Shown here piece by piece: positions 30,829 through 33,639 of a stretch of DNA of 64,000 nt. This stretch comes from Nitrospirota bacterium. Its GTDB lineage: Bacteria > Nitrospirota > Nitrospiria > Nitrospirales > UBA8639. Every line of letters begins with the position of its first letter. Within the stretch, counting starts at the first letter, position 1. The DNA lies in assembly GCA_029864405.1 (NCBI GenBank), contig JAOTTP010000001.1, forward strand, positions 96,909-160,908, in the 5' to 3' direction. The position numbers and the translations under genes are program-made. The notes under the pieces were generated by a model. The model had not been told where the DNA came from. It did not search any database and saw only the letters and a program-made list of their open reading frames with translations.

Positions 30829-31110
30829 TTTCTCGCCCCCCTCGCCTGTGTCTCCACCATTCATACAAAGCCCCAGATATTCGAGCCAGTTTTACGGGGA
30901 CCAAAAAACATGGGCAAGCTTCTTTTTTACTTCATTGGCGTCAGTGTGGTGCCGGATCCGCGCATTGTGTGAACCGATTTTTGAGGGTTCTTTGCTGCGT
31001 TGCCTTTAATCCAACCCATAATCGTCATCTTTACGGACTTAATGGTTGAAATGGCTACAACCAACATTTCAAATTGCAACTAAACCAACCAGACGGTACA
31101 GTCGCAAGTA

Positions 31111-33639
31111 ATGCTTACTTCCACGCGCCATTTAATTCTTGAGACCGCCATAGACATGTTGGGACGGGACGGCGTCGGTGCGTTGACGTTAGAGCATGTC
31201 GCCCGAGAAGCTGGACTCAGTAAAGGAGGGCTACTCTATCATTTTGAGGGGAAAGAACAGTTACTCGAGGGGCTCATCGAATTGCTCATACACGATTTGG
31301 ATTGCAAGCAGGTTGGAGAATTTCTCACAAACTCCATTTATGAGGAGCATCCCAGGGCTGCTTTTAGCCCAGATGCGGTGGAGAACCCTGTCAACCATCG
31401 GTCCCTTCGAGGGCATGAAATTGCCTCCATTCTCATGGCAGCGCTTGCCATCAACCCACATCTACTGGAACCCATTCGAGAGCGGTACCAAAACTGGCAG
31501 CACCTTTTTCTGGCCAACACCGTCGATCCGACTCGTTCACTCCTGGGGCGGCTGGCTGCCGAAGGTCTGTGGTTCAGCGAGGCCTTAGGATTAGCCCCAC
31601 CAACTCGCGAGCAACGGGCCGCACTTGTTCTGGAGATCCAATCTCTCACACAATCAGGAGAACCGATGCGAGAACCATCCACGACCATCCTATTGCCCAC
31701 ACAGCCCCAAGACGCCTTCGCGGAGTTGGGCTCCCTCAGTGCCAATATACAGAAACTCGAACAGCGAGCTCACCAACCCACACAGGCGTCAGCGCGTGCA
31801 CTGCTGGCAAAACAATATCCTCAAGGGTTTTGGCAGGGCGATTTAACCGCCGACACCACACTGGAATCCGATTACGTGTTGCTCTTGCTTTGGCTCTATC
31901 CACCGGAGGCCGGTGGGTGGGAGTCCGGGATCCAGACCAAAGTGGACAAAGCCATACGCACCATCCTTGACCGGCAGCTTTCAGATGGGGGATGGAACAT
32001 TTACTCGGAAGGGCCGGCCGAAGTGAACGCAACAACTCGTGCCTACGTGGCGCTTCGGGTTGGTGGCTATGATCCCGCCCAGCCACTTATGGAGCGTGCA
32101 CGAGAATGTATTCTTGCCCTTGGTGGGCTTCAGGCCACAAATAGCTATACGAAGAACAATTTGAGCATGTTTGGTCTTTTTCCGAGAAAGTACACGCCCA
32201 GTGTTCCACCTGAACTGGTCCTCATCCCTGGAAATGTTTTGTATGAAATTTCATCGTGGAGTCGCGCTATCGTCGTCCCCCTCTCTATTCTCCAAGCTTC
32301 CGGCGTGCAGCGCCGTGTGCCTGGGAATTGGACCATTGACGAACTCTTGGTGCCCAATCGGAAGCTGACGTTTCCGAGAAAAGATCCCTTTTCTCTGATG
32401 TTTCATCAAGTGGACAAGATTTTAAAACTCTGGGAAAAGCGTGGCTTTAAGGATATCCGTGCCAAGGCGATTCGGGAAGCTGAGAAGTGGATGCTCGACC
32501 ACATGCGGTTCACAGATGGGCTGGGAGCAATCTTTCCGGGAATGATGTATGCCCTTATGGCGATGGATGCTCTTGGCTATGAACGGGACCATCCGGATTT
32601 TATTGATACACTTGGCCAGCTTGAAGGGCTTATTCTTGAGCGAGAAACTGCCCTGCAGTTTCAGCCAAGCTTGTCCCCAGTTTGGGATACCGCCATCTCG
32701 ATGTTCGCACTGGGAGAACTCGGAATTGCTGAGCCGGAAGCCATGCAGCGGGCAGCGGACTGGTTATTGAGCAAAGAGATTCGCCGCAAGGGAGACTGGT
32801 CGGTGAAGCGCCCGAACTTACAGCCCGGAGGATGGCCCTTCCAGTTTGCCAACGAACTGTACCCGGATATTGACGATACCGCCATGGTCTTATTGGCCCT
32901 AGAGCATGCGAAGGCATCAGATCCTGATCGACAGGCCCGTGCCGAAGGTCGTGCCATCAACTGGTTATTAGGCATGCAATCCTCGGATGGTGGTTGGGCG
33001 GCCTTTGATGTCGATAATGATTGGGCCTTACTGAACAAGGTCCCCTTCGCAGACCATAATGCTATGCTCGATCCAAGCTGCCCAGATATCACCGGCAGGG
33101 TGTTAGAGGCACTCTGTCGACGGGGATACACACACCAACACCTGGCGATCGCGCGCGCTGTCCAATATCTTTTGGTCCACCAACAAGCTGATGGGAGTTG
33201 GGATGGACGCTGGGGAGTGAATTATACCTATGGGACATTCCTCGCCGTGCGTGGCCTTCGCGCAAGTGGTTCCCCGACTACGAATTCCGCAATCCAGCGT
33301 GCGGCCACATGGATGCGCTCAGTCCAAAACCATGATGGCGGGTGGGGGGAAAGCTGTGCCAGCTATGAAAAGCAGAAATTTATTGCAGCATCAAGCACCC
33401 CTTCACAAACGGCCTGGGCCTTGCTCGCACTTGAAGCGGCTGATGATCGAGCCTCCACGTCTGTTCAACGTGGGATCGACTGGCTGCTGACCCATCAAAA
33501 TCAGCAGGGATGGTGGGACGAAGAACTCATGACAGGAACCGGATTCCCTAATGTTTTCTATTTGAAATATCATTTGTATGCCCACTACTTTCCCTTGTTG
33601 GCCCTTGGCACATGGCAAGCAGGCTCAAAAAACTCATGA
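31111..33639 (+). CDS. TetR-family regulator fused in frame to squalene-hopene cyclase
   Basis: aa 1-~185: TetR HTH (LEHVAREAGLSKGGLLYHFEGKEQLLEGL) and C-terminal domain; aa ~186-842: SHC with DIDD catalytic motif (ELYPDIDDTAMVLLAL) and QW repeats; one uninterrupted 842-aa ORF. Confidence 0.93.
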   Translation: MLTSTRHLILETAIDMLGRDGVGALTLEHVAREAGLSKGGLLYHFEGKEQLLEGLIELLIHDLDCKQVGEFLTNSIYEEHPRAAFSPDAVENPVNHRSLRGHEIASILMAALAINPHLLEPIRERYQNWQHLFLANTVDPTRSLLGRLAAEGLWFSEALGLAPPTREQRAALVLEIQSLTQSGEPMREPSTTILLPTQPQDAFAELGSLSANIQKLEQRAHQPTQASARALLAKQYPQGFWQGDLTADTTLESDYVLLLLWLYPPEAGGWESGIQTKVDKAIRTILDRQLSDGGWNIYSEGPAEVNATTRAYVALRVGGYDPAQPLMERARECILALGGLQATNSYTKNNLSMFGLFPRKYTPSVPPELVLIPGNVLYEISSWSRAIVVPLSILQASGVQRRVPGNWTIDELLVPNRKLTFPRKDPFSLMFHQVDKILKLWEKRGFKDIRAKAIREAEKWMLDHMRFTDGLGAIFPGMMYALMAMDALGYERDHPDFIDTLGQLEGLILERETALQFQPSLSPVWDTAISMFALGELGIAEPEAMQRAADWLLSKEIRRKGDWSVKRPNLQPGGWPFQFANELYPDIDDTAMVLLALEHAKASDPDRQARAEGRAINWLLGMQSSDGGWAAFDVDNDWALLNKVPFADHNAMLDPSCPDITGRVLEALCRRGYTHQHLAIARAVQYLLVHQQADGSWDGRWGVNYTYGTFLAVRGLRASGSPTTNSAIQRAATWMRSVQNHDGGWGESCASYEKQKFIAASSTPSQTAWALLALEAADDRASTSVQRGIDWLLTHQNQQGWWDEELMTGTGFPNVFYLKYHLYAHYFPLLALGTWQAGSKNS

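Follow-up and report, generated by a model that had tools for sequence, protein, structure and literature searches.

The 64,000-nucleotide stretch of Nitrospirota DNA analysed here (the window) carries a gene in which a TetR-type regulator and a complete squalene-hopene cyclase (SHC) are encoded as one polypeptide. The fusion recurs in relatives, has a single origin, retains an HTH region under purifying selection and is preceded, in its own promoter, by a conserved candidate operator. Taken whole, these comparative data are best explained by a self-regulating bifunctional triterpene cyclase, a reading that we consider probable.

RESULTS

A TetR regulator and a squalene-hopene cyclase in one frame

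The frame runs from ATG to TGA and contains no internal stops (Table 1). All four Pfam domains found in its translation exceed their curated cut-offs: TetR_N at residues 9–53 (8.7e-12, 45.1 bits versus a cut-off of 24), TetR_C_28, the C-terminal ligand-binding/dimerisation domain, at 102–180 (2.5e-19, 69.9 versus 26.4 bits), SQHop_cyclase_N at 226–512 (8.1e-88) and SQHop_cyclase_C at 521–836 (1.2e-133). The NCBIfam equivalog hopene_cyclase (TIGR01507) scores 609 bits versus a cut-off of 431.1. The original prediction of a single 842-aa ORF holding a complete TetR protein and a complete SHC with no stop between them is borne out by translation, Pfam and TIGR01507, as are the DIDD (the DXDD catalytic motif) and the QW-type repeats, of which there are seven. 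The predicted TetR C-terminal domain is also present, although it ends nearer residue 180 than 185 and is followed by a linker predicted to be disordered at residues ~182–202. The computed masses of 94.0 kDa for the whole fusion and 73.5 kDa from M186 onward agree with the sizes of ~94 and ~74 kDa proposed for the two forms.

Table 1. Features of the fusion gene and its promoter (window coordinates)
Feature	Position	Strand	Evidence or remark
Putative -35, TTGCAA (relatives TTGAAA/TTGATA/TTGACA)	31074..31079	+	TTG(A) kept in 14/14 aligned fusion promoters
Candidate TetR operator, ACTAAACCAACCAGACGGTACAGT; clade consensus ACTATACCGTCTAGACGGTATAGT	31079..31102	.	Conservation, profile matches
Putative -10, TACAGT	31097..31102	+	Overlaps right half of operator; 8 nt ahead of start codon
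TetR-SHC fusion gene, 842 aa	31111..33639	+	ORF translation, domain searches, relatives
TetR moiety, residues 1–180	31111..31650	+	Pfam, HTH dN/dS 0.053, TetR-type fold
HTH, about residues 1–60, recognition helix SKGGLLYHF; TetR_C_28, 102–180	within 31111..31650	+	
Linker, residues 181–225	31651..31785	+	AF2 pLDDT <50 at 182–202; dN/dS 0.21
Shine-Dalgarno-like AGGAG, internal	31656..31660	+	5 nt ahead of ATG
In-frame internal ATG, codon 186	31666..31668	+	Aligned to unfused SHC starts; candidate start of 73.5-kDa free cyclase
SHC moiety, residues 226–842, DIDD 586–589	31786..33636	+	Pfam, TIGR01507, alignment, AF2/Foldseek

In the AF2 model, the TetR moiety alone has the fold of multidrug-binding TetR regulators, with CgmR, EbrR and MtrR among the best PDB matches, and the SHC fold is modelled with confidence (Foldseek match 1sqc, TM 0.93 by target length). 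Alignment with the Alicyclobacillus acidocaldarius SHC shows that the positions of the DXDD motif, W169, W312, F365, W489, F601 and F605 are retained, while D at 45, Y at 129 and F at 420 mark the SHC clade of the fusion, fused and unfused members alike. A degenerate active site was considered and rejected: E93, R127, W133 and Q262 of the A. acidocaldarius enzyme are replaced, but the replacements are no sign of lost activity because the genome's canonical SHC, encoded at the hopanoid locus, shows them too; the fusion SHC is a second enzyme, separate from that one. The genome also contains a squalene/phytoene synthase family gene, which could plausibly supply squalene to the fusion cyclase; conversion of squalene to hopene/diplopterol would be the reaction expected of an SHC.

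Further SHC-like genes were seen in relatives. A third such gene with ~40% identity to the fusion SHC is present in G009 (C49:108038-109870), ~6 kb away from the canonical SHC, and in G006 (C70:19840-21633). Two open frames of exceptional length (1154 and 1211 aa; G033:C16:55632-57530 and G023:C22:47000-48883) show distant, 31–34% similarity to cyclases.

Distribution, single origin and selection

A search of related genomes for the same domain order, which the original prediction had suggested, recovered the fusion in 13 genomes besides that of the window. Twelve of these belong to the same genus, and G034 represents a different genus of the family. A stop between the halves, the outcome named beforehand as adverse, is present in none of them. 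The fusion is cut by contig ends in G003, G004 and G012. Scanning a larger collection added the Nitrospirales MAGs NPIRA01 and NPIRA04 and the Terriglobia MAG Centralia_MAG_166, bringing the distribution to 16 Nitrospirales genomes and one acidobacterium. Since the one-frame architecture recurs at 73–90% identity across the other Nitrospirales and at 62% overall in Centralia_MAG_166, it is not a product of chance or read error; the same open frame is found in 14 complete independent sequences, closed genomes included, at 62–89% identity. A sequencing error, or a stop lost as an artefact, is ruled out by these stop-free relatives. In the Terriglobia fusion (L077:4001-6685), 25 residues are inserted in the cyclase ahead of the FQPSLSPVWDT motif, and the protein has a C-terminal extension.

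In the SHC-domain tree the 14 fusions included form one clade (100/99), and a single origin is recovered in 99% of bootstrap trees. This clade adjoins acidobacterial cyclases and is distant from the canonical SHC that these Nitrospirota also encode. Median dN/dS is low in the SHC (0.046) and the HTH (0.053) and higher in TetR_C (0.125) and the linker (0.21), with 0.38 in the TetR mid region; by these comparisons both halves are under purifying selection and the HTH is constrained as strongly as the enzyme. Among relatives, the fusion gene sits in at least three gene contexts.

A candidate operator in the promoter of the fusion gene

A sequence of the type TTGAAA-ACTAWACCNNCYRGACGGTAYAGT-ATG lies within the 40 bp immediately upstream of the start codon in all fusions, the other upstream DNA being unalignable, and this arrangement travels with the gene across the three or more contexts. 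The -35 and -10 boxes are separated by 17 nt in the window and by 17 or 18 nt in relatives. The spacer is filled by a near-palindromic candidate operator of ~24 bp. The original prediction had missed it; it falls inside the region (31020–31110) earlier proposed for EMSA.

A 24-position profile (R1) was built from the fusion promoter sites of the Nitrospirota. Its best match was the fusion promoter in 13/13 fusion genomes searched (E 3e-5 to 5e-3; next match 0.29 or worse), a result mostly expected within the clade on which R1 was trained, and the real test lies in held-out matches. These comprised NPIRA01 and NPIRA04, all five unfused TetR-SHC pairs described below, and the acidobacterium G060, where the top match was its fusion promoter (E 0.22). 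R1 has no site at SHC genes of the same clade that lack a TetR. At the Terriglobia site the palindrome, TACCGTCCGGACGGTA, is perfect over 16 bp and is flanked by TTGACA and TACACT. When single upstream regions were tested for palindromes, some relatives were significant, and the window palindrome (7/12) was no better than shuffled sequence; being weak by itself, it leaves the operator call to rest on comparison. Sigma-70 promoter and terminator scans gave nothing above threshold in the window.

No second site comparable to R1 was found in the fusion genomes searched, and a 3-mismatch pattern search for a wider regulon gave extra matches only at control level. The suggestion that the fusion senses the hopanoid pathway and acts on its other genes thus found no footing, whereas that of a genuine fusion and autoregulator gained support from the single clade, the selection on the HTH and an operator with no comparable second site outside the fusion's own promoter in the genomes searched.

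In most relatives the first ATG lies 6–9 nt after the -10 box and lacks an SD. As the start codon sits at the expected transcription start, the fusion mRNA is probably leaderless.

The same operator type, ACCGTCYRGACGGT, accompanies stand-alone TetR_C_28 regulators (L111, L112, L117 and L121–L123, from Acidobacteriota and Nitrospirota), sometimes in tandem, and several of these regulators precede HlyD-type efflux genes. The recognition helix is shared with stand-alone regulators that have this operator type; ACCGTCYRGACGGT is apparently a general operator for this TetR_C_28 subfamily. A different conserved inverted-repeat block, CAAAACCTGTAGTAAAATGACGGTTTTG, was observed before the TetR-less SHC genes L156, L157, L158 and L159 of the acidobacterial sister clade, twice in the last, which suggests that another regulator took over the genes carrying it.

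Unfused pairs and the internal start

In five Acidobacteriota (L115, L116, L118, L173 and L174) an unfused TetR gene is followed by an SHC gene whose product belongs to the sister clade of the fusion cyclases. The stop and start codons form TGATG in G571, G611 and G861 and TAATG in G689, and in G749 (TAG-ATG) both ORFs share one reading frame, separated by a single stop codon. The cyclase begins with MREQF followed by 53 residues to GYW in 4/5 pairs, and the fusion has MREPS at codon 186 with the same 53 residues to GFW. Because this M-to-G[FY]W spacing aligns without a gap, the internal ATG is the counterpart of the separate SHC start, as had been supposed; the positions given for it and for the AGGAG were also confirmed. 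The survival of unfused pairs together with this correspondence makes loss of the stop in a TetR-SHC pair the likely evolutionary route to the fusion. In the TetR tree, a sister relationship of fused and paired TetRs was neither shown nor rejected (p-AU 0.463). In the G571 pair (L162:10648-11514) the operator is close to the start of a divergent GNAT acetyltransferase gene, which may share its control.

Of 19 in-frame internal ATGs in the window gene, only codon 186 has GGAG, GAGG or AGGA 4–10 nt ahead. At the junction, the SD/ATG is kept in 11 lineages, with GGA and ATG invariant across these 11 sequences. Among them, codons 177–186 have the lowest synonymous divergence of 833 10-codon windows (pS 0.24 versus a mean of 0.575), and codons 177–190 the lowest of 829 14-codon windows. 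In G004, G006 and G009, a separate lineage, the ATG has become ACA or ACG, and these show no comparable synonymous dip, in a sample of three sequences, one of them incomplete. As the internal start is missing there and in the Terriglobia fusion, dual translation is not a family-wide requirement; a second, free-cyclase product is plausible in most lineages, although the dip could also stem from RNA structure rather than initiation.

DISCUSSION

Our results point to a mechanism in which a TetR part and a complete SHC, held on one polypeptide by a flexible linker, would act on their own gene. The dimeric TetR part would bind the ~24-bp operator between the -35 and -10 boxes and thereby repress transcription. 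Repression may be lifted by a hydrophobic ligand in the TetR pocket, such as squalene, a hopanoid or some other lipophilic compound, or by a PutA-like route in which binding of the enzyme half to the membrane draws the repressor away from DNA. Conservation at the DNA level fits repression or activation alike and does not name the signal, and the simplest reading is that the fusion represses its own gene through its TetR domain. The gene would have arisen once, from a TetR-then-SHC operon whose abutting stop and start codons gave way to a single frame, and the same mRNA probably yields some free cyclase as well, from the former SHC start codon and its ribosome-binding site, which are constrained in most Nitrospirota lineages. 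A more elaborate version seems doubtful at present: the cyclase would sense its substrate, its product or its occupancy of the membrane and control its gene accordingly, as a TetR-based counterpart of PutA, while an internal start on the same leaderless mRNA gave a second cyclase free of the repressor, and the feedback would be set by the ratio of regulator-enzyme to plain enzyme.

Several alternatives bear on this interpretation. An error of sequencing or assembly, or a recent pseudogene fusion of neighbours, might be suspected from the existence of unfused pairs in other bacteria, but with the frame intact in 14 complete independent sequences and purifying selection on both halves it can practically be dismissed. 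The original prediction's tandem pair minus its stop therefore stands as evolutionary history and falls as artefact or recent decay. It is also very unlikely that the TetR part is vestigial or purely structural, serving to dimerise the protein with no role in DNA binding: the enzyme is from a membrane-associated family and the TetR mid region evolves fast, but the HTH is strongly constrained, its recognition helix is the same as in stand-alone regulators, and the operator is kept with the fusion and missing where SHC genes of the same clade have no TetR.

The remaining two readings carry more weight. Chances appear even that the gene is dual-product, its main functional products being a full-length regulator-enzyme initiated at the leaderless start and a free SHC initiated at the internal SD/ATG, in a ratio set by initiation. 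The sole SD-led in-frame ATG of the window gene coincides with the strongest synonymous constraint and with the unfused SHC start, and the first ATG of most relatives follows closely on the -10 box; yet such constraint falls short of proving initiation, and the loss of the ATG in three genomes and its absence from the Terriglobia fusion mean that it is not essential to the family, so that this part of the original prediction is plausible but not universal. Somewhat less probable, though a serious contender, is a fusion of convenience, in which TetR autoregulates locally, the cyclase half senses nothing and a translationally coupled operon was merely fixed into one chain. The disordered linker is compatible with this, as is the unfused operon, which has the same operator and layout, so that regulation came before fusion. 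However, the fused architecture has been maintained in two phyla and in three gene contexts, and retention of the internal start suggests a use for separate cyclase. Our preferred reading remains the self-regulating bifunctional cyclase.

PutA is, by analogy, the nearest functional precedent. Both proteins join a DNA-binding domain to a metabolic enzyme on one chain, both enzyme families are membrane-associated, and the fusion is likewise predicted to target its own promoter; the combination of enzyme and DNA-binding domain on a single chain is that of a trigger enzyme. The DNA-binding domain of PutA is, however, a ribbon-helix-helix and its substrate a soluble amino acid, whereas the fusion has TetR and a terpene cyclase, and no partner operon was found for it. 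Trigger enzymes are a known class that includes PutA (PMC8249747, citing Commichau & Stulke 2008). PutA associates with the membrane and keeps its own gene repressed while it is not engaged with membrane and substrate (PMC8249747).

Each half and the operon also have known counterparts. The fusion shares the full-length fold, DXDD acid motif and key aromatic positions of the A. acidocaldarius SHC (1sqc) but has an extra 185-residue TetR N-terminus and the clade-specific D45, Y129 and F420. It resembles TetR_C_28 efflux repressors (L111, L112 and L117; CgmR/EbrR/MtrR-like) in HTH, operator type and C-terminal domain, but these are separate proteins encoded ahead of HlyD-type efflux genes, whereas the fusion is joined to the lipid cyclase that it is predicted to control. 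With the acidobacterial unfused operon it has gene order, operator and SHC clade (~61% identity) in common, the difference being two genes with touching or overlapping stop and start codons. A full-text literature search, mostly outside subscription journals, found neither a TetR-SHC fusion nor a TetR regulator of hopanoid synthesis.

Hopanoids are bacterial lipids of geological importance, and the fusion occurs in a group of nitrite-oxidising bacteria. Here a cyclase seemingly comes with its own repressor and a mapped candidate operator, the unfused pairs of Acidobacteriota offer a natural comparison, and the path from operon to bifunctional protein can be traced as a series, from overlapping stop and start codons through an in-frame pair with one stop to a fusion with the old start and one without. 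Because the predicted repressor site sits in the gene's own promoter, the enzyme probably regulates its own synthesis.
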